A stretch of 64,000 nucleotides of DNA, taken from contig JAKLHK010000003.1 of assembly GCA_022710185.1 (NCBI GenBank), positions 1 through 64,000 of the forward strand. The letters are read 5' to 3'. Both the position numbers and the translations under genes were made by a program. The DNA is from Bacteroidota bacterium (GTDB taxonomy: Bacteria; Bacteroidota; Bacteroidia; Bacteroidales; JAGNHN01). Below the pieces are notes generated by a model. It saw only the letters and a list, made by a program, of their open reading frames with translations, made no database searches and was not told the DNA's origin. Each line of letters begins with the position of its first letter. The first letter of the stretch is position 1. Shown in pieces: positions 29,183 through 61,483 of this stretch.

Positions 29183-29227
29183 GTCAAAATTGATATCTCC
29201 ATAGAGTTTCATAGTATTTTCTTCCTT

Positions 29228-32200
29228 ATGAATAGAATCAATCTCCTTAAGATCTGTCAGGGTTTGTTGTTTGTAATAACTACTGTTCTGACGCATAGTG
29301 TTTTCGCCGATTCCGGGGAAGGCACATCAGCCAGCATCCGGGTATCCACTAAATATGGAATTTCCGGCATTGTGGTTGATGCGCAGAGCGGTAATGCTAT
29401 TTCCGGCGCAAGTGTCGTCCTAACAGCACCCGGCAATCAAACCTTTACTTATACTACGGCAACAGATGGCTCATTTTCTTCGAATAGTATGCCGTTATCG
29501 CCATTTACCGTGGAAATTTCCGCTAACGGATACCAGTCAGAAATCAAGACATTCAACACAACAGAGACCTGTCTTTTTAGCGTAATTGGTCTGGATGTCC
29601 CTGATTCTAATTGCATAAAAATCAATCCTTCCCTAAGGATTTGCGCAGACGAAATCGTTGAGGTCCAGCCTTATTACTATCGCCTGACCGGAAACCCCGT
29701 CATTAATGGTATCCTTAGCATAGATGGGCAGGTTATGGTTGATAAAAGGCCGCACCTGTATTATCCCGAGATATCAGCCAATGGAAATCTGTATGCCCTT
29801 GATATTCAAGGAACCGATGTGCTTGTAAGCTCCGGCACTGGGCTCAACGTATATGTAGATGGGAATACGCTGAATCCCAAGGACTGGAAGTCGATCATCG
29901 GAAGTCCTATCCTGATGGGGGGCTTTAATATGGATGTCTGCCAGATTATAGTTGATGGGGATGGTAACAGTGTTGAGCTCAAGAGTTTTATGAAAATGCC
30001 GTTTCCTGTAGACTTGATCTTTGCGAAGTTGTGGGAAGAAGCCAAACATCCGATCAATTTAGTGAGCAAGCTGGGATTCAGCGATCTTTATTCCAAAGAC
30101 AATGGCAGAAGCAGCACCGGGAACATCAGCGGCCTGGGGATTAATTTTGGAGCATTTTCCATAAAGGACCTCAGCCTTTATTTTAATACTTCTACCCAGG
30201 TTTTTGGTGGAGGTTTCTCTCTGAGCATCCCCGGCGATCCTCCTGATGTGCTGAAATCCGGATCCCTGACAGACTCCTCATCCATTGATTCCCTTCTGGC
30301 TTTACCGCTTGTCTTAGTTAATTCAACCGGTATGCCCGCAGATACACTTCTGTTGGATAGTCTGATCGGAAAGAGAACCTTTTTGGGGGCTGATCTTATC
30401 AGGTTAAGCGTTCAGATGGAGTTTGTATCAGGATCAATCCATGAGTTCCGGGTTTCAGTAGGTGCAAAGGTTCCCCTGTTTGCCACCGGATTATACATAA
30501 CAGAAGCGACCGGGGGCATTTCGAATTTCACCAAACTGGACAATTGGCGAGTACTCGCCAATTTTGACATAGAAACAGGACTGAACCTTCCCGTGCTCGG
30601 TTCGCCGATCAAGATTAATGACGTTGGTGGTGAGGTCCACCCCTGGGATCATTTTAAGTTATCCGGGGTCGTTGAAATCTTCGGCCAGCAGGTTTCGGGC
30701 GCTATCCTTGAATATTCTCCCCCTAAGAAAGCATTGGTAGGTGAGGCACAACTTGACCTTGCAGGTATCATTCTTGGTAAAGCCAACCTCAGCCTGAAAT
30801 CCGGAGACTTTTCGGGAGGGGGCGAATTTACGGTCAAGACACCCCCTGTACTCCCCTGGAAATTTAAATGGGCGCAGAATCGGGTAATAGGATCATCAGC
30901 AGCATCATTCCACAATAATAATATTTGGCTGCAAAGAAGAATCTTCGATTTCGGCATTGCTATGAGGCTGGAATATGGGAATCCCAATTTTCCCTACTTC
31001 CATTATTACCTCGGGAGCAATTATGAAGAGATGTCACAGATATGGAAGGGTGCGGCCAAAGGCAAGTCTGCCGTGCAATTCCAGGTACCCGAGAACTGTC
31101 CTGGAATGATGGTTATAGTAGGAGACACGGTCAATCAGCACCATGTTTCAATTTCGTTGCAGGATCCGTCTGGCGGAATCTGGGATAGTACCAATACGTC
31201 TTATACCTGGGTGCCTGAAAGTTCCCAGACTATAATAGTCGTGGAGAATCCTGTCAAGGGCAACTGGAGCCTGGTGGCAAATAGCTTTACCAATGTACGG
31301 ACTGAATTTCTGTTCCAGGACCAGGCGCCTGGCCTGCTTGTAGGCGAGCCGGTCAATGCGGAGTACGGGATCGTAAACTGCAGGATGGATATCACCGACT
31401 TCAATGATACCCTCGCAGTCAGGGTATTCTACGACACGGATTCCCTTGATTTCGATGGTGTGGTTATCGAAAGCTTTGAGGTGGTGAACAATGCCGTAGT
31501 AGATTATGTCTGGCAAACCGGCGTATTGCCTGATGGAGAGTATTTTATGTATGCCGAGGTGAGTGATGGGAAGAACGTACCTGTTAGGCAGTATTCAAAC
31601 GGGGCTGTATTGCTGAACACTTCAGGAATAACTGAGCACCCGGAAGGAATTGTACATATTCAAAAGGGGGATTCCCTTGAGATCCAATGGGCTGGTCCTG
31701 TGAACCCTATATTAACAACAGCCTTGTTCTATCTTCATGATCCTGCAAACAGCCGGACAGAACAGATCGCAGTGGTTGATGATACTGTTGCAATGTTTTT
31801 CAATCTTAGGGCCGGTGTGACGTATGAGCTCTGGGGAAGGTTCATTAGCCCCCAGGGAGTAGGGGGATCTGTAAGCGACACGATTCTGATTTATGTTAAT
31901 GCCTTTGATACTGCAAATCATCCTCCCGTTATCACCTTGGCTGGACCTACCATCTGGAGGCTGACCGAAGGAGAGCAGGATAGTTTGTTGCTGACAGCGG
32001 TGGATGCAGATCAGGACTCCCTTGCGTTTAATCTTCTAACCAACATTCAAGGACTGGTAATCAACGGGAACGTTCTTTCCTGGACGCCCAGCGCCAGTGA
32101 ACTAGGGGCGCATCGCATCCTATTTTCGGTTGGTGACGGAAATGCGATTGACACTGCTGCCTTGGAGGCCGTGGTATACTCCCAGGATGATGTAAAGGTG

Positions 32201-33862
32201 AGGACCGGATACAGCTCCCGCACTTTATATGAAAAGGATGTAAAGTTTGCGAGGATAGTTGATTATCAAAGGCAGGTTCCAAATATCCAGGTACTGTTGA
32301 TGAATGTCCGTTCGGGTGATTCCGTTGCCATCGAGTGCAGGAAAGTGAATGAATTTGAATTCATTGGGACCTTTGAAGTTTCAGCATATTCGTCATCGAT
32401 GCTGGGAGTAATGCACGGGGATACTATTCGCCTGAAATATTTTACAGATGGTACTGCGTACTTTGCCGATGCGATCTATGACAGCCTGCCTCAGCCCAAC
32501 GATCAGTCTCCGCCAGCGGGCATACAGGATATCTCGGCCAACCTGCTTCGGAATAATGGAGTTTTACTAACCTGGACCAGTCCGGGTGACGATGGGATGC
32601 TGGGGAGAGCATTTGCCTACGATATCCGGTATTCGTCATCGCCCATCTTGAATGAGAATGATTTTTTTATGGCAAACCGTATCAGCCAGGTGCCCTATCC
32701 ATCTCCCTCCGGAAGACGGGACTCGTTGGTCATAGCCCTGGATTCACTGGAAGGATTGAGAGGAAGTGACAGCCTTTGGTTAGTAATCAAGACAGAGGAT
32801 GAGCAGCAGAATTGGAGCCCCCTGGGAAATCTTGTCTCTGTTCCCTTGCAATTGGCTCCTTTAGCCTTGAATGCAAGTATCAGTGACCGATATGTTGTAA
32901 GCCTTGACTGGGATACTCTTGCTGTGGCAGGGTTGGATCATTTCAGAATATTGAGAGGGATTGACGATGGTAGCCTTAGCCTGCTCGCCGACAGTATTCT
33001 GTCGACTGCATATTCAGACGATTTGTATGCAGCTCTGGATGGTAGTTTCACCTATGGAGTGCAGGCTATCTATTCGAATGGAAGCAGTGATACTATCTTT
33101 TCTTCGCCCATTGACCTTGATCGATTTACGGATGGGATTATCCTGTTTCACCTGGAGGATGCAAGCATTTTCGATAGCGTACATTACAGCATCGCAAGTA
33201 TAGACTCAATATATTCAATGAATTATGCAGGAATGACCAATTCCACAGGGCTGGTGCATTTGCCTGGCCTTTTCAAAGGGGATTATCGGGTTTCGGCCGT
33301 TCGTGCAGGATATCAGAATCTTGTGGATACTGTTAGTGTGGGCAAGGAAAACAGCTCATTCGTTATTATGTTATACGATGAGCAGAAGGAAAGAATGATT
33401 ACGGGATTTGTAGTGTATGATGACCAAACCCGTAGTTCGATACATAATGTTATGGTTAAGGTCAAGGATTTGTCAGGAAATGTTCTGGATACAGCATTTA
33501 CGGACTCTTTGGGATACTTTAGCGCTTATTTGAACCCAGGAGAATATGTCATCGAAACTATGATCCCGATACCCTGGGGTGGTTGTGATTCAATCGATGT
33601 CCATACGGTAATGGAGCATTTTGTTGACTTCGACAGCTTGAGCGGGTTGAGATTTCTGGCGGGTGATGTAAATGTGACTGGCAATATCAACGCAATCGAT
33701 GCATTACTGATGTCACGCAGGATCAATGGTCTAAGTGGATCTTTCTTGTCGGGTAACTGGGTTCCGGTAACTCATCAGGTATCTGTTCGCCCTGGTCTGC
33801 CACAACAAGTAATACTGAAGGTACTGGCGACCGGTGACGTGGATGCATCATATCGGCCATAG
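29228..33862 (+). CDS. Large secreted multidomain surface protein
   Basis: A 1544-residue secreted protein. After a signal peptide (residues 1-27, ending VFA) comes a carboxypeptidase-regulatory-like beta-sandwich (about 40-110, GISGIVVDAQSGNAISGASVVLTAP). A long unassigned middle contains repeated LSLKSGDFSGGGEF-like segments, and then cadherin/Ig-like modules (PPVITLAGPTIWRLTEGEQDSLLLTAVDADQDSL near 900). Fibronectin-type segments follow (QDISANLLRNNGVLLTWTSPGDDG, 1100-1280), then a second carboxypeptidase-regulatory-like module. The end is a dockerin-like Ca-binding pair: GDVNVTGNINAIDALLMSRRING and a final GDVDASY. No typical T9SS C-terminal domain follows, so it may be truncated or anchored differently. 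It begins 45 nt after the FISUMP gene and shares its lower GC. The function is unknown; adhesion or polymer binding is a guess. Confidence 0.78.
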   Translation: MNRINLLKICQGLLFVITTVLTHSVFADSGEGTSASIRVSTKYGISGIVVDAQSGNAISGASVVLTAPGNQTFTYTTATDGSFSSNSMPLSPFTVEISANGYQSEIKTFNTTETCLFSVIGLDVPDSNCIKINPSLRICADEIVEVQPYYYRLTGNPVINGILSIDGQVMVDKRPHLYYPEISANGNLYALDIQGTDVLVSSGTGLNVYVDGNTLNPKDWKSIIGSPILMGGFNMDVCQIIVDGDGNSVELKSFMKMPFPVDLIFAKLWEEAKHPINLVSKLGFSDLYSKDNGRSSTGNISGLGINFGAFSIKDLSLYFNTSTQVFGGGFSLSIPGDPPDVLKSGSLTDSSSIDSLLALPLVLVNSTGMPADTLLLDSLIGKRTFLGADLIRLSVQMEFVSGSIHEFRVSVGAKVPLFATGLYITEATGGISNFTKLDNWRVLANFDIETGLNLPVLGSPIKINDVGGEVHPWDHFKLSGVVEIFGQQVSGAILEYSPPKKALVGEAQLDLAGIILGKANLSLKSGDFSGGGEFTVKTPPVLPWKFKWAQNRVIGSSAASFHNNNIWLQRRIFDFGIAMRLEYGNPNFPYFHYYLGSNYEEMSQIWKGAAKGKSAVQFQVPENCPGMMVIVGDTVNQHHVSISLQDPSGGIWDSTNTSYTWVPESSQTIIVVENPVKGNWSLVANSFTNVRTEFLFQDQAPGLLVGEPVNAEYGIVNCRMDITDFNDTLAVRVFYDTDSLDFDGVVIESFEVVNNAVVDYVWQTGVLPDGEYFMYAEVSDGKNVPVRQYSNGAVLLNTSGITEHPEGIVHIQKGDSLEIQWAGPVNPILTTALFYLHDPANSRTEQIAVVDDTVAMFFNLRAGVTYELWGRFISPQGVGGSVSDTILIYVNAFDTANHPPVITLAGPTIWRLTEGEQDSLLLTAVDADQDSLAFNLLTNIQGLVINGNVLSWTPSASELGAHRILFSVGDGNAIDTAALEAVVYSQDDVKVRTGYSSRTLYEKDVKFARIVDYQRQVPNIQVLLMNVRSGDSVAIECRKVNEFEFIGTFEVSAYSSSMLGVMHGDTIRLKYFTDGTAYFADAIYDSLPQPNDQSPPAGIQDISANLLRNNGVLLTWTSPGDDGMLGRAFAYDIRYSSSPILNENDFFMANRISQVPYPSPSGRRDSLVIALDSLEGLRGSDSLWLVIKTEDEQQNWSPLGNLVSVPLQLAPLALNASISDRYVVSLDWDTLAVAGLDHFRILRGIDDGSLSLLADSILSTAYSDDLYAALDGSFTYGVQAIYSNGSSDTIFSSPIDLDRFTDGIILFHLEDASIFDSVHYSIASIDSIYSMNYAGMTNSTGLVHLPGLFKGDYRVSAVRAGYQNLVDTVSVGKENSSFVIMLYDEQKERMITGFVVYDDQTRSSIHNVMVKVKDLSGNVLDTAFTDSLGYFSAYLNPGEYVIETMIPIPWGGCDSIDVHTVMEHFVDFDSLSGLRFLAGDVNVTGNINAIDALLMSRRINGLSGSFLSGNWVPVTHQVSVRPGLPQQVILKVLATGDVDASYRP

Positions 33863-46601: not shown

Positions 46602-48353
46602 TTACTCTACGGTTACTTTGCGGGTAACGGCGGAATTCTCGCCCTGGATACGCATGAAGTACACCCCCTTGCTGTAGTTGCGTACATCAATCGTGGCTTC
46701 GGTGTTGTTCACTGCGGTGGTTTTAAGTAGTTTGCCTGCCATATCAAAAATCTCCAGTGAAATCATTTTGCGATCAGAAATTATTGTGACATAGTCTTCT
46801 GTTGGATTTGGGTTCAAGATTGCTGAAATGGACTTCTGCGCCTTCTCCAGATTATCGCGCTTCCCACTGAAGCATATCGAGTCGGCTATTGGATTTTGTG
46901 ATTGATACGCTATTAATATTGATGAGGATCCTGGATTGAATTGATAGCCTTCCATCGCTTCGTAATTGACGTCTATTGCACCGCTTAGTGGATAAACAGG
47001 ATGCTCAAGGCAGTCATTAATGGGCTGATTATGAACCTTAATCAGCCATGGAGATGTGGTTCCTGGATTCCAATAATCTGTGTATCCTGTCATTAGCATT
47101 GTTGAACTATTATATGGGATTATTCCAAGAATAGTGTCATATCTGGCGATATCACCATATACTCGTGCCGTAACGATACTACCATTAATTGGATTAAGTA
47201 CTATCTTGAAACCTTCAATCCAGTGGTTAGCAAAAATTAAATCTATATTGGCATAGCCTACAATGTGGTAATAACCTTCATTAAAAATTATCCTTCTGGC
47301 ATTCTGTATGCCTTCTTGACATCCATTAAAATTACACAAGCTTAATGTATCAAACCAATTTGCCGTGAAATCTGGATAATTTAAGTTTGCCACAGCAATT
47401 TGAGTTCCGTTGGCTTCGTTTCTCCAGTTAGCAATAATACCAAATTCATCACCGTGAGAAACTATACTGGCCCCATAAATGTTGTAATATGTGTTTGAAA
47501 TAGGGAATTCAACTCTTGTACTTTCAGTTATTGTCCCCCCAATATCAATGGTAGTCAGGAGTATGTCTGAGTATTCATCTATTGGGTCTTGAGTATTTCC
47601 ATCCAGGCCGCAATATCCTATTAGGGCGTACTCTTCAACATCTTCATTGTCAACTCTAATAATTTGCTCATATGAGGTAAAATGGGAGTGAAGATTTGTG
47701 CCTCGAAGCTTATGACCCCAAATTAGATCGCCTGAATCGAACTGTACAAGCATTATTATGCCATGCTTGTATTGGTCAAATGAGTCTTGTTGTGGATCGC
47801 CATAGTGTACTGTATCCATTGTTCCAGTTCCACACACGATCAGCCCTTCTGATCCTTGAATTAAAGAATTAAAGGACTCAACACTATCATATTCAACAAT
47901 CCAATCGGCGTCGATTGGGTTGTCTTCTTCAAAGCGAGCAATAAATCCCCTAATGTGATAATGTTGATTACTTGAATTGCTAGAGTCTTGAAGAAAGGTG
48001 TAGCCACATACGTAAATCTTTTCAGAGAATACAATTGCATCTCTAATTGCAAAACCTTGGTATGTAGGTAATTCTTCTGGCGATTGTGTTGGCGAGAAGA
48101 AATAACTATTCCAAACAACCCCAAGTGATGACGCCGATATTTTTGTGACTCCGAAGGATACTCCTTTTGTTCCTGAGACTGCTGAAATGCTTGGAAAGAT
48201 CAAGAAATTCCCATCCGTGGATCGAATGATTGGGATATTTGTTGCACTCTTATTCTGGAATTCATAAGTGTGCATATTATTGTTTTACCCAATAAGCCCG
48301 GAGTAAACAAGTATTGATAATACAAGTTGTAAAAATATCATTACAATCTTCAT
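46602..48353 (-). pseudogene. T9SS cargo protein interrupted by an in-frame stop after the signal peptide
   Basis: The frame opens at an ATG at 48353 with a clear signal peptide (MKIVMIFLQLVLSILVYSGLIG). It then meets TAA at codon 23 and continues in the same frame for a 557-residue body starting near 48275, which has no export signal of its own. The body looks like a beta-propeller-type extracellular protein of unknown function. It ends in a type A T9SS sorting domain (ILNPNPTEDYVTIISDRKMI... KGVYFMRIQGENSAVTRKVTVE). Replacing TAA by CAA would give Gly-Gln, the usual Bacteroidota cleavage site, so a single C-to-T change (or sequencing error) is the simplest explanation. The body is strongly AT-rich compared with the sorting domain. 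Confidence 0.75.
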
Positions 48354-48515
48354 ATCGGTATATTGTAGATTTTTAAAATTAGCCAATTCTGCAGAATAAT
48401 GGCTAAGCATCTTTGAGCTGTGTCATTATGAAACAGTGCTTTAGTGCAGAAGACATAGCCAAGGATTGTTCAAATCTTTAAATCTTATAGATAGCCTATG
48501 AAAGCAGATGCAAAT

Positions 48516-48548
48516 AAAAATGGGCTGAATCTCACCGATTCAGCCCAT
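48516..48548 (-). terminator. Terminator after the T9SS cargo gene
   Basis: ATGGGCTGAATC and GATTCAGCCCAT form a perfect 12-bp stem with a 5-nt loop. On the minus strand a T-rich run follows. It lies 25 nt after the stop of the gene at 48574-50223. The upstream part of this gap (48354-48515) shows nothing else. Confidence 0.85.
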
Positions 48549-48573
48549 TCAAAATATTAAAGATTGGTAAGTT

Positions 48574-50223
48574 CTATCGAACGGTAACCTTCTTTGTTAC
48601 AGCGAAGTCCTCTCCAAAAACCTTAATAAAGTATGTGCCCTTAGAAAGCTGGCTAACATCGATTGATGTTTCAGTATTGTTCACACTTGACACATGAACA
48701 GTTTGTCCGATAGTGTTCATCACTTCAATGGTCAGAATAGGCTCCTCACTCTGAATGCTTAACTCCTCAGTGGCCGGATTCGGGAAAACGCTGATCTCCA
48801 CTGCAGGAGTGCTGATTTCCTTTTGTCCAACTACCATATCAAGGTAATAGCAGAACACATCCTGCTCGCCTTGCGCAAGACCACCCAGGGTGAATTCACC
48901 GGGCACTACATTAGGAGCAGCCCAAAGCCCACCAGCGATACAGGAGGCTCCAAGGTCACCACTGACACTATGGGTAACACCGGTAGTGACACCGCTACTG
49001 ATCTTAAGCTGTTCCACCTGACATCCGCCGCCTGAAGCGGTACCGGTAAAGAGCCAGAGGTAGGGGCCGTTGGCTGAGTTCCCATCATAGGCCATGCCGT
49101 AATGGCTTAATGTATTGGTGATTGCATTCAAGATCGTACCCGTTCTGCTGATAAGCGTCAGAGACGAAACCGGAGGACCCCAGTTTGATACCCAGAATCC
49201 ATCATTGACCGGGTCGTAGGCGATGGCGCGAACAGGGATAGGTGAAGTGATCGTACTTACCAATGTTCCGGTGGAGGTGAACTGATAAATCGAAGCAGTC
49301 ATGTCGGAGCCGTAGAAATACGTCCCATCGTAAGCCAAATCGCGAAGTCCTGATGCTCCGGTGAATGTGGGGGTGAATGAGTTGAGTACTGCTCCGGCGG
49401 GGCTTAACATAAAGATATCTTTATTGCCTGCTGAACCCCATTCTGCCACCATGAAATTCGTTCCATCGAATTCTGAACCTGCAAGGCCGACGCCTGCTGT
49501 GAGGCTATCAGCATCAAGCACAAGCTGGAGGTCCCACATCTGGGAGCCCGTGCCCCCGCCTGAACCGGCATGTACCAGGTCGAGGAAGAAGGCAGCGCCA
49601 TCGTTGTAGTTGTCGTCCACATGCTCACGGAATGCGATGTAGATGCTTTGGCCGGCAAAGGCGGCCAGGGGGTAGCTCTTGTAGAACCAGCCGGTATCGC
49701 CAGGGGCGAAATAGAGGTCGGCCAGCACATTGGTGAAGTTGGCCGTCGCATTGCCGGTGGTGGAGACCAGCACCTGGAGGGAATCCAGGTAGAGGTCAGA
49801 GAACTTGTACACCCAGAAGGTGAGCACATCGGTAGTGGTCACTCCGGTGAGCTGGGGAGTGATGAGCCACTGGTCGTTGTAGGTGGCTCCCCCGGTGGTC
49901 CAGGTGGCGAAGGCTACCGCGCTGCCGCCGCCGGTGGGGCTGACCACGGTACCTCCGTTCCATCCGGGGATAGGGGTGGTGCCTACGGTCTGACGGGCCC
50001 AGCCGGTACCGCCGTCCGGGCTCTGGATGGTCCAGCCGGAGGGGGGGAAGGTGGTGCCTTCAAAGCTCTCGTTGATCACGGTGACGGCCGTATTCTCGGC
50101 GCCGGAAACCACGGCGGGAGCATTGGGGTCCACGTCAGCCACGCTTGCGGTCTGAGCCATGGCGAAGGTGCCGGAAAGCGCCAGCGCAAGAGCCCAGGAC
50201 ATCATTTTGGTAAAGTTTCTCAT
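48574..50223 (-). CDS. Secreted protein with T9SS type A sorting domain
   Basis: A 549-residue secreted protein. The signal peptide MRNFTKMMSWALALALSGTFAMA is followed by Gln. Residues about 50-190 resemble a choice-of-anchor/MAM-like beta-sandwich (INESFEGTTFPPSGWTIQSPDGGTGWARQ and AFREHVDDNYNDGAAFFLDLV). About 200-430 look like a beta-propeller. The C-terminal ~75 residues are a T9SS sorting domain (ISVFPNPATEELSIQSEEPI... KGTYFIKVFGEDFAVTKKVTV). It would be exported through the SprA translocon and anchored at or released from the surface. GC differs sharply within the gene: the 5' part is very GC-rich, the 3' part AT-rich. The substrate is unknown. Confidence 0.9.
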   Translation of the reverse strand: MRNFTKMMSWALALALSGTFAMAQTASVADVDPNAPAVVSGAENTAVTVINESFEGTTFPPSGWTIQSPDGGTGWARQTVGTTPIPGWNGGTVVSPTGGGSAVAFATWTTGGATYNDQWLITPQLTGVTTTDVLTFWVYKFSDLYLDSLQVLVSTTGNATANFTNVLADLYFAPGDTGWFYKSYPLAAFAGQSIYIAFREHVDDNYNDGAAFFLDLVHAGSGGGTGSQMWDLQLVLDADSLTAGVGLAGSEFDGTNFMVAEWGSAGNKDIFMLSPAGAVLNSFTPTFTGASGLRDLAYDGTYFYGSDMTASIYQFTSTGTLVSTITSPIPVRAIAYDPVNDGFWVSNWGPPVSSLTLISRTGTILNAITNTLSHYGMAYDGNSANGPYLWLFTGTASGGGCQVEQLKISSGVTTGVTHSVSGDLGASCIAGGLWAAPNVVPGEFTLGGLAQGEQDVFCYYLDMVVGQKEISTPAVEISVFPNPATEELSIQSEEPILTIEVMNTIGQTVHVSSVNNTETSIDVSQLSKGTYFIKVFGEDFAVTKKVTVR

Positions 50224-57208: not shown

Positions 57209-58023
57209 TGGATGGTATGACGGCGGTTCGTCCCAAAAAGCACCTGGGCCAGCATTTCCTTACCGATGCCGGTGTCGCTCGCCGGACCGCTGAGGCCATT
57301 CCGGATACGGCCACTCGGCTGCTGGAGATCGGCCCGGGCACCGGGGCCCTGACCCGGCATCTGCTGGAGCTGCCCGGAAAAGAGCTGAAGCTGGCAGAGA
57401 TTGATGAGGAATCGGTGAGTTATTTGCTGCAGCACGGGATCGTAGCCCCGGACTCCCTGATCCGGGGCGATTTTCTGAAGATGGACCTGCAGGGGATCTA
57501 TGAACAGCCGTTCTGGGTGGTGGGGAATTTCCCCTATAATATTTCAAGTCAGATCCTTTTCCGGGCATACGAGAATGCGGGACTGGTGCAGGGCCTGGTG
57601 GGAATGTTCCAGAAGGAGGTTGCCCAGCGCATCGCCTCCGGGCCCGGCAGCAAGACCTACGGCATCCTCAGCGTATTGCTGCAATCCCTGTTCAGGGTGG
57701 AATACCTGTTCACGGTAAACGAAGGCGCCTTCTTCCCTGCGCCCAAGGTGAAGAGCGGGGTGATCCGGCTCAGCCCCGATCCGGACCTGGTGTATCCCAG
57801 CGACAAGTCGGTGTTCACCCAGGTGGTGAAGACGGCTTTCAACCAGCGCCGCAAGACCCTGCGCAACGCCTTGAAGCCCCTGCTAGACCCCGGGGTAATG
57901 CTCCCGGAGGAGCTCGCCTCAAAGAGGGCTGAGCAGCTTGGCGTTGAAGAGTTTCACTGGCTTGCTTCGGTCATTCGCTCCAGGGAGCCCCGATGCGCTC
58001 CAGACCTTCCTTCAGAGGCTTGA
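57208..58023 (+). CDS. rsmA: 16S rRNA dimethyladenosine transferase
   Basis: RsmA (KsgA) dimethylates two adjacent adenosines near the 3' end of 16S rRNA during small-subunit maturation. The 271-residue protein has KKHLGQHFLTD at the start, the S-adenosylmethionine motif LEIGPGTGALT, the catalytic NFPYNISS and the C-terminal NQRRKTLRNALK. The ATG at 57208 overlaps the preceding stop; an ATG at 57217 is equally possible. The last 53 nt overlap the convergent BNR-protein gene tail to tail. Confidence 0.97.
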   Translation: MDGMTAVRPKKHLGQHFLTDAGVARRTAEAIPDTATRLLEIGPGTGALTRHLLELPGKELKLAEIDEESVSYLLQHGIVAPDSLIRGDFLKMDLQGIYEQPFWVVGNFPYNISSQILFRAYENAGLVQGLVGMFQKEVAQRIASGPGSKTYGILSVLLQSLFRVEYLFTVNEGAFFPAPKVKSGVIRLSPDPDLVYPSDKSVFTQVVKTAFNQRRKTLRNALKPLLDPGVMLPEELASKRAEQLGVEEFHWLASVIRSREPRCAPDLPSEA

Positions 58024-61000
58024 CCAGGGACTGGCCCAGGCCTTCAAGCCGTTCATCCAAAGCCTTCAGTTCTTTTCTTGATAAGGTCAGGCCGTCGAGC
58101 ATGGTCTGGGTGGGCGCCGTCCGTGCATGGTAGGCACTGAAGTTGGCCACCTCGATGCGGTTCAGGATGGACTGGGGCTCCGGGGCGTCTCGTTTGGTCA
58201 TCGTCTGATCCCCTTCCAGGCGCCGCCTTAGCCCAAGCAGTTCTTTTTCCAGCATCACGGCCATGCGCTGCAGCTCCGGAGCCGCGGTGCGGCTGCGTTC
58301 CAGGGCATCCTGCGCCCTGCGGCTGTAGTCCAGCAGGTCTTCCACCTGGGCAGCCGTGGCCCGGGCGTCGCGGTTGAGTTCATACATGGCTTCCTGGAAG
58401 GCCTGCAGGGCAACCCCTTCAGTGGCCGGAAGGCTGATGTTGTTCAGCGAACTGACGACGACCCCGATGGGACCGGCCAGCGGGCGCGGAAGGCCATCTT
58501 CCACCGCCATCACACTGACCTGGTAGGATCCCGGAGGCACCAGGAGGCCGGAAGGGGTGTTGCGTCCCGGATCCGGAGCTTTGGTAGCCGGGGAGGAGGT
58601 ACTCGCCCTCAGGTCCCAGTCGACCCGCATGAGCCCGCTGACGGGCTTTTCCCTGAGATAACGCACCACCTTTCCCTGGCTGTTGCGGATTTCGAAGAGC
58701 AGATAGGGTGCCTTCTCATCATCTTCGGCACGCAGCGAATCCCAGGAAGGGTAGGGGACCGGCTGGCCGGCTTTGATGATGTCCTTCTCCCGTTCCTGAC
58801 GGAGCTGCTTCCGTGTCTTCAGTCCTTCTTTCAGGTATAGGGTAAACACCGCACCGAAAGGAGGGTTGGGTGCAGTAAAGAAAGTGGCACCCTGGCTACC
58901 GTTGTCGTTGCCGCCGTGAACGCGGACCGGGATATACTGAAGGACGTTTTTTCCCATTGGGAACAGATGGGCTTCCTTCTGCAGCAGGGCCTCGTCCATC
59001 CCGAGCAGGGGGGTATAGTCGTCCAGCACATAGAAACCCCTTCCGAAGGTCCCCAGCACCAGGTCGTTATGCTGGCGCTGAATGTCAATGTCGCGTACCG
59101 CGATGGGTGGGAGCCCGCCCTTGAGCTGGATCCAGGAGGCCCCGTCGTTCAGGGTGCAGAACACGCCAAACTCGGTGCCGATGAACAGAACGCCTGCCCG
59201 GTGGTGGTCTTCGATGATGCAATAGATCACCTGGCCCTGGGGAAGGTTGGAGGCGATGGACTTCCAGGTTTTTCCGCGGTCGCTGCTACGCAGGATGTAA
59301 GGACTGAAGTCGCCATTCTTATGATTGTCGAAAGAGGCATACACCACATCCGGCTGAAACATGGAGGCCAGCAGACAGCTCACATAGGTACGTTCGGGAA
59401 CGCCAGGGAAGCGGCTTTCCTTCCGCCAGCCCTGTCCGCCATCCTCGGTGACCTGGATGAGCCCGTCGTCGGTACCGGCGTAGATGAGGAGGTCAGGGCC
59501 GGGATCCGCGAGGTAGAGGCGCTCGGTCTGGTCCTCAGGTCCGGGAGGGGAGACGCTCAGGGCAACGATGTTACCGTAGAAAGAAGTGGAGGCGTTCTTG
59601 GCCACGGCATCCACCGACCAGACCTTATCCATTACCGGAAGAGTGTTGCGGTCGATCTGGGCGCTGAGGTCAGGGGAGATGGCGACCCACGAATTGCCCT
59701 GGTCTTCGCTGCGGAACAGTTTGTTCGCGGCGAAATAGAGCCGCTTGTTGTTCCTTGGGCTGATGAGCAGGGGAGAGTCCCAGTTCCACCGGTAAGGTTC
59801 TTCTCCTTCGCGTTCCATAGGCTTGATACCCAGGCTTTCCCCGCTGCGTTTGTCGTAGCGCACCAGCCATCCGTACTGCGATTGGGCGTACAGGATATCG
59901 GGGTTTACCGGGTCGATGACGGTCTCAAAGCCATCTCCGCCCTTGGTCACGAACCAGTCGGCATTGCTGATGCCCATGGCATTGAGGGTGCGGGAAGGTC
60001 CTCCGAGGGAGTTGTTGTCCTGGGTGCCCCCATAGATATTGTAAAAGGGACGGGTATTATCCACACTGACCCGGTAGAACTGGGTGACCGGGAGGTTGGG
60101 TTTGAACTCCCAGAAGTCGCCCCCGTCCCAGGATTCATAGAGTCCGCCGTCGCCTCCGATGAGGAGGTGTGCGGTGTTGACCGGGTCGATCCACAGGGCA
60201 TGGTCATCAACATGACGGTCGCGCAGCCCGAGGTTGCGGAAGGTCTTGCCTCCGTCCTCGGTCACCTTCGTATAAGTATCCAGGGAATATACCTTGTCCG
60301 GGTCCCTGGGGTCACAGAGGATCTCACTGTAGTACTGCGGGCTGGTGGGCACGTAGTCGTTGCGCTTTTCCCAGCTCTCCCCCCGGTCGGTGGACCGGAA
60401 GAAGCCTCCGTTCCCGTTGGCTGCCTCGATGATGGCATAGAGTATGTCAGGATGGGAAGGCGATTGGGCAAGCCCAATCCTGCCGACATCACCTTTTGGG
60501 AGGCCGGTCTCTATCTTCCGCCAGCTCTTCCCTCCGTCGGTGGTCTTATAGATGGCCGATTCCGGACCTCCGTTGATGAGGGTCCATACATGCCGTCTCC
60601 GCTGATAAGCCGCGGCATACAGCACCTCGGGGTCCCTGGGGTCCATCACCAGGTCGGTAACACCAGTGTTTTCCGAAATGAAAAGGACGTTCTCCCAGGT
60701 AGTCCCACCATCCAGGCTCCTGAATACCCCCCGGTCACCGCCGGGCGCCCAGAGCGGCCCTTGAGCTGCGACCCATACCGTCCTTGGGTCCCCTGGCTGG
60801 ACCAGCACTTTAGCAATATGCTCCGAGCGTTTAAGTCCCATATTCTTCCAGGACTTGCCCCCGTCGAGCGAACGATAGACCCCGTCACCCCAGGAAACAC
60901 TGCGCTGGCTGTTGTTCTCTCCGCTCCCTACCCATATCGTATAGGGGTTGTTGGGATCGATGGTGACGCAACCGATGGAGAAGACGGGCTGGTCGTCGAA

Positions 61001-61291
61001 CACCGGCTCGAAAGTGGTCCCGGCATTTTCCGTTTTCCAGACACTGCCGCAGGCCACCCCTACAAAATAGCGTGCAGGGTTCGATGGGTCTACGGCCAGA
61101 TCGGAGATGCGGCCCGATTTCAGACCGGGGCCCAGGGCCCTGAATTTGAGGCCGGAGGCTACCTTATCCAGGGTATTCTTCTTTCCTTCGCCCTTCTCGC
61201 TTGCCCGGCTGCCGGCAGCCAGCGGAGGCATAAGGATTATGAGGGCGAGGCCGATCCATACGGCCAGGGTCATCGCAGGGGTGTTTTTCAT
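57971..61291 (-). CDS. Sortilin/BNR-type beta-propeller protein
   Basis: A large secreted protein of 1106 residues related to the VPS10/sortilin-like 'glycosyl hydrolase' BNR family. After the signal peptide (about MKNTPAMTLAVWIGLALIILMPPLAAG) come many BNR/Asp-box units of the form SxDGGxxW: RSLDGGKSWKNM, RSLDGGTTWENV, KTTDGGKSWRKI, RSTDRGESWEKR, VTEDGGKTFRNL, RSEDQGNSWVAI, VTEDGGQGWRKE, RSSDRGKTWKSI. These form two propellers (about 30-700). A FlgD-like beta-sandwich and a C-terminal helical segment (about 930-1100) follow. No sialidase catalytic set is evident, so enzymatic activity is doubtful. ATGs at 61291 and 61303 are both possible. Its 3' end overlaps rsmA. Confidence 0.88.
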   Translation of the reverse strand: MKNTPAMTLAVWIGLALIILMPPLAAGSRASEKGEGKKNTLDKVASGLKFRALGPGLKSGRISDLAVDPSNPARYFVGVACGSVWKTENAGTTFEPVFDDQPVFSIGCVTIDPNNPYTIWVGSGENNSQRSVSWGDGVYRSLDGGKSWKNMGLKRSEHIAKVLVQPGDPRTVWVAAQGPLWAPGGDRGVFRSLDGGTTWENVLFISENTGVTDLVMDPRDPEVLYAAAYQRRRHVWTLINGGPESAIYKTTDGGKSWRKIETGLPKGDVGRIGLAQSPSHPDILYAIIEAANGNGGFFRSTDRGESWEKRNDYVPTSPQYYSEILCDPRDPDKVYSLDTYTKVTEDGGKTFRNLGLRDRHVDDHALWIDPVNTAHLLIGGDGGLYESWDGGDFWEFKPNLPVTQFYRVSVDNTRPFYNIYGGTQDNNSLGGPSRTLNAMGISNADWFVTKGGDGFETVIDPVNPDILYAQSQYGWLVRYDKRSGESLGIKPMEREGEEPYRWNWDSPLLISPRNNKRLYFAANKLFRSEDQGNSWVAISPDLSAQIDRNTLPVMDKVWSVDAVAKNASTSFYGNIVALSVSPPGPEDQTERLYLADPGPDLLIYAGTDDGLIQVTEDGGQGWRKESRFPGVPERTYVSCLLASMFQPDVVYASFDNHKNGDFSPYILRSSDRGKTWKSIASNLPQGQVIYCIIEDHHRAGVLFIGTEFGVFCTLNDGASWIQLKGGLPPIAVRDIDIQRQHNDLVLGTFGRGFYVLDDYTPLLGMDEALLQKEAHLFPMGKNVLQYIPVRVHGGNDNGSQGATFFTAPNPPFGAVFTLYLKEGLKTRKQLRQEREKDIIKAGQPVPYPSWDSLRAEDDEKAPYLLFEIRNSQGKVVRYLREKPVSGLMRVDWDLRASTSSPATKAPDPGRNTPSGLLVPPGSYQVSVMAVEDGLPRPLAGPIGVVVSSLNNISLPATEGVALQAFQEAMYELNRDARATAAQVEDLLDYSRRAQDALERSRTAAPELQRMAVMLEKELLGLRRRLEGDQTMTKRDAPEPQSILNRIEVANFSAYHARTAPTQTMLDGLTLSRKELKALDERLEGLGQSLVKPLKEGLERIGAPWSE

Positions 61292-61483
61292 GTGTGGATT
61301 CATTGGATGGATGCAGGGGTTACGCCCTGCACAGGGGCAAGTTGCCACGAAATGCGGAGATATGCAAGGCCTTCCAGGGACTTGCTTTCGCCTGGTCCAA
61401 CCCTTACCTTTATTAATTATTGATAGGGAAGGGATGCCAGTATTTCAGGTGGTGATGTTAATGCACCGTTAAATATTCATCCC

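Follow-up and report, generated by a model that had tools for sequence, protein, structure and literature searches.

A stop codon at the usual glutamine position of a T9SS cargo gene, probably a recent nonsense mutation

Introduction

What does a stop codon mean when it stands exactly between the signal peptide and the body of a T9SS cargo gene, at the position where most cargoes of the same genome carry Gln? This question is raised by one minus-strand gene (the target) in the first 64,000 nucleotides of contig JAKLHK010000003.1 of a Bacteroidota bacterium, a stretch called here the window. Gln directly following the signal peptide (+1) averages 71% per species by prediction, according to one report (PMC5837995). 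In P. gingivalis, substitution of Gln with Asn in selected substrates reduced their abundance and left viability unaffected (PMC10653852). A literature search turned up nothing on readthrough, phase variation or interrupted pseudogenes in such a setting.

The target gene and its surroundings

The minus strand from 48410 to 46602 is read in one frame, as ...MKIVMIFLQLVLSILVYSGLIG, stop, NNN, MHTYEF... through to the end. The features of the locus are as follows.

48288..48353, minus strand: signal peptide coding stretch, MKIVMIFLQLVLSILVYSGLIG, 22 residues (by eye and hydropathy rule)
48285..48287, minus strand: in-frame TAA at the usual Gln position of the genome's T9SS cargoes (by frame reading and N-terminus comparison)
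46602..48275, minus strand: 557-codon ORF, cargo body and sorting tail, its first-codon ATG being a possible restart
46608..46811, minus strand: type A T9SS C-terminal sorting domain (TIGR04183, PF18962)
48518..48550, minus strand: terminator-like hairpin with perfect 13-nt arms, between the upstream cargo gene and the target
48574..50223, minus strand: intact neighbouring T9SS cargo with choice-of-anchor J domain, signal peptide and Gln in one frame

The signal peptide was judged by eye with a hydropathy rule and no trained predictor; a further in-frame ATG lies upstream of it at 48410. Three Asn codons separate the TAA (48287-48285) from ATG 48275. The tail reaches 48.6 bits against TIGR04183 (cut-off 23) and 55.7 bits against PF18962 (cut-off 27), and the target thus ends in the C-terminal sorting domain of a type A cargo. 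The signal peptide expected in the same open frame is in frame and severed by TAA, and the codon directly after it, Gln under the Q-rule, is TAA. The arrangement given in the earlier note, a signal peptide ending in GLIG, then TAA, then a 557-residue cargo with sorting domain in the same frame, is therefore borne out by frame reading and profiles. It is also that of a nonsense pseudogene, an in-frame stop within an otherwise intact coding frame. The body has no Pfam or NCBIfam match at E 0.01, solved structures match the tail only, and a single-sequence structure model has a mean pLDDT of 37.9.

The hairpin suggests that the target is transcribed separately from the upstream cargo gene. The strict pattern, which follows the Bacteroidota-type promoter motif, has 3 matches in the window (up to one mismatch) vs 2.58 expected, none of them upstream of the target gene. 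With relaxed spacing, three 8-of-10 matches occur in the 227 bases upstream vs about 0.4 expected, a figure that is the window's average rate, uncorrected for the AT-richness of these bases. Judged by such motifs, a promoter upstream of the target is possible but unproven. Antisense to the target ORF and within it (47359-47389, plus strand) is an exact match to a promoter-like pattern, TTTG-N19-TANNTTTG; it may be due to chance, because the window's 3 matches hardly differ from expectation. A tRNA-Gly (GCC) was called by ARAGORN opposite the intact cargo gene 48574-50223 (49889-49977, plus strand), probably falsely, because it is absent from the genome's Rfam tRNA search. Two Rfam matches, both under their gathering scores, were disregarded.

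Glutamine at the first position in the window and the genome

Twelve window frames were picked by a crude filter and then read by eye. Gln stands at the likely cleavage site in 5 of the 12 filtered frames, or in six with the intact cargo 48574-50223. Frame 29183-33862 has Asp there, frame 57971-61444 (minus strand) probably has a residue other than Gln, two are lipoprotein-like and three resemble a membrane protein or shadow frames. The statement that nearly all exported proteins of the window have Gln at that site is thus roughly right.

The genome, a 3.28-Mb draft of 53 contigs that is 92% complete, allows a larger comparison. It contains 118 sorting-domain matches, of which 98 are over the cut-off, and the N-termini of 97 were read, C2:98327, whose 86-codon frame reaches the end of a contig, being left out. 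Of the 97, six are cut by a contig edge, one (C8:58646) has a start resembling a membrane anchor, three have an open frame that lacks a signal peptide (the target, C52:77327 and C36:25201), and 87 have a signal peptide. A script, imprecise at a few positions and doubtful at C19:26264, called Gln at +1 in 73 of these 87; its four “noSP” cases, read by eye, comprise two with Gln and two without it, bringing the total to 75 of 87 (86%). With Gln as the probable +1 residue in 75 of the 87 readable cargoes, the placing of the stop at the Q-rule position holds.

The codon used for +1 Gln in the 74 scored cargoes is CAG in 60 vs CAA in 14, and this slightly lowers the prior odds of TAA having arisen in one step; the Gln codons of the target's own body, by contrast, are mostly CAA (15 CAA vs 6 CAG). 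No relative covering the stop site was found, so a former CAA is not demonstrable. Glutaminyl cyclase (PF05096) has no match, and the 4 matches of PF04389 (M28) are not resolved to a cyclase.

Is the join more than chance?

In all six frames of the window, a loose signal-peptide-like stretch ends exactly at 6 of 3859 stops, the target included; the same test on 95 stretches of the genome gave 9 of 6002. Such a join is rare, about 1-2 in 1000 per stop, and coincidence is therefore unlikely. The precise codon struck is less remarkable than the join: a single transition would also turn any of 33 other codons of the target ORF into a stop (16 CAA, 6 CAG, 3 CGA and 8 TGG), so a transition-type change would strike the +1 codon in about 1/34 cases.

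Recurrence of the arrangement and a tRNA able to read the stop would be expected of recoding. Among the 97 own N-termini, the target alone has a signal peptide ending at a stop. The sister genome (G001), the single member of the same genus among the 60 relatives searched, has 121 sorting-domain matches (106 over the cut-off), and in none of 40 cargoes read there does a signal peptide end at a stop; these were taken from the upper part of the list with most long frames omitted, and one runs off a contig. The arrangement is therefore absent from the 96 other own and 40 sister cargoes. The 42 tRNA matches represent 40 anticodon kinds, and none of them is UUA, CUA or UCA, which would read UAA, UAG or UGA; no tRNA able to read the stop was thus found, a negative tempered by the genome's 92% completeness.

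Origin of the body and other broken cargo genes

When the target was searched against the genome's own contigs, five loci were found, all tail-only matches, and among the matches listed for the 60 relatives every one reaches the tail. Across the order (393 genomes), the body matches itself and two weak partial relatives, in G305 and G187 (about 30% over 85 residues); in 395 class and 395 phylum genomes, draws that overlap with that of the order, it matches only itself. No relative of the body was found in plasmids, and the pattern around the stop had 0 matches in viral contigs. The GC content of the target ORF is 0.397 vs 0.555-0.661 in three neighbours, and its GC3 is 0.357 vs 0.628-0.811. 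By composition and these searches, the target body is an AT-rich orphan, and in these searches no close relative shows the original codon. In the sister genome, the locus between the aldehyde dehydrogenase and ABC-F genes is occupied by two cargo genes akin to the other cargo in the window; no target copy is present at this syntenic place, and no body match was found in that genome. Signal peptide and Gln share one frame in four similarly arranged cargoes, two own and two from the weak order relatives. Their first residues align poorly, so they support the layout only.

Two other own cargoes are likewise without a signal peptide. One is a sorting-tail ORF on the minus strand (C52:77296-78082; L205; G000:C52:74800-80500), just downstream of ORFs that we take to be IS66-type. 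The other (C36:25191-26328; L204; G000:C36:24800-26514) starts among repeated GC-rich units near a contig end; it appears rich in AT and of similar make-up. One cargo esterase of the sister genome (L245; G001:C11:31865-32615) is interrupted in frame by a TAG at C11:32314, minus strand; this stop sits mid-domain just before a GQSMG stretch. The pieces before and after this stop match consecutive parts of the esterase family profile, the former above and the latter below the cut-off. In-frame stops in such genes are therefore not limited to the +1 codon.

Explanations of the stop

The locus is probably a lineage-specific T9SS cargo gene, off through a recent nonsense codon directly behind its signal peptide. 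We infer that the organism itself carries the stop, at a codon formerly for Gln, and that a recent loss has left the gene off. Started at ATG 48353, translation would then produce a bare signal peptide and stop, and a restart at ATG 48275 would give at most a cytoplasmic protein without an export signal. A nonsense mutation is favoured by the single frame that joins signal peptide, TAA, body and sorting domain, by the uniqueness of the case among 97 own and 40 sister N-termini, by the lack of a stop-reading anticodon among the 40 kinds, by the two own cargoes without signal peptide and the split sister esterase, and by the AT-rich ORF having no counterpart at the sister's syntenic place. The intact frame after the stop limits divergence since its appearance to at most about 1.3-4.9%, a bound that presumes neutral drift and whose range is set by the assumed indel rate; against this, an intact 557-codon frame is equally expected of a gene that is read through. 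No special mechanism is needed for a stop at the junction. The earlier note had offered three readings, of which fresh inactivation fits best, and a reversible off-state and readthrough do not fare well.

The main rival was missing from that list of explanations. The stop may be a single wrong consensus base in the draft assembly, the gene being intact in the organism, which is unlikely but deserves serious weight. The assembly is a draft (53 contigs, 92% complete), and many internal-stop pseudogenes of public assemblies are assembly errors, as stated in one study (PMC11017572). The 87 intact cargoes comprise 80,810 codons; if the consensus were wrong at a rate of 1e-4, then 0.84 false nonsense codons would be expected among them, and at 1e-5 the expectation falls to 0.08. 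However, 0 of the 118 sorting-domain matches have an internal stop and the frames of the 87 cargoes run without a break, which speaks against a generally poor assembly.

It is very improbable that the stop is segregating in the population or reversible, with the gene active in only some of the cells. A single base change could divide the two states, but no direct repeats were found at 48150-48560, and the four inverted pairs in this region are the terminator hairpin or imperfect arms; a repeat tract or convincing invertible element, as in a phase-variable gene, is absent from it.

That the TAA is read through to give a low or conditional amount of exported full-length cargo is barely plausible. 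The frame is open and joined on both sides of the TAA, and in E. coli some TAA readthrough was detected, with Gln among the inserted residues; the same study, however, describes TAA as the most faithful stop, with a mean readthrough of 0.01-0.05% in reporters (PMC11126739). Two negatives also disfavour it: no stop-reading tRNA was found, and the 97 own and 40 sister cargoes include no second case. Equally faint is the chance that TAA is decoded as an amino acid at the junction, with stop leakiness serving as a dimmer for surface-protein export. Body peptides, if found, would imply recoding right at the export junction and make the locus much more important.

A restart at ATG 48275, three codons past the stop, to give a cytoplasmic protein with the signal peptide serving as a leader is hardly credible, and we know of no cytoplasmic use of a T9SS sorting tail, which counts against it.

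Comparison with known systems

If the nonsense mutation is accepted as the probable explanation, then the finding is a record, in a draft genome, of one rapidly changing T9SS cargo that has probably been lost. The target resembles a pseudogene or allele with one internal stop in its single in-frame stop and intact remaining frame, but differs in that the stop occupies the +1 codon, next to the signal peptide. It resembles a Q-rule T9SS cargo (type A, Bacteroidota) in having signal peptide, body and sorting tail in one frame, but differs from it in that a stop replaces the usual Gln and none of the genomes searched contains a close relative of the body.
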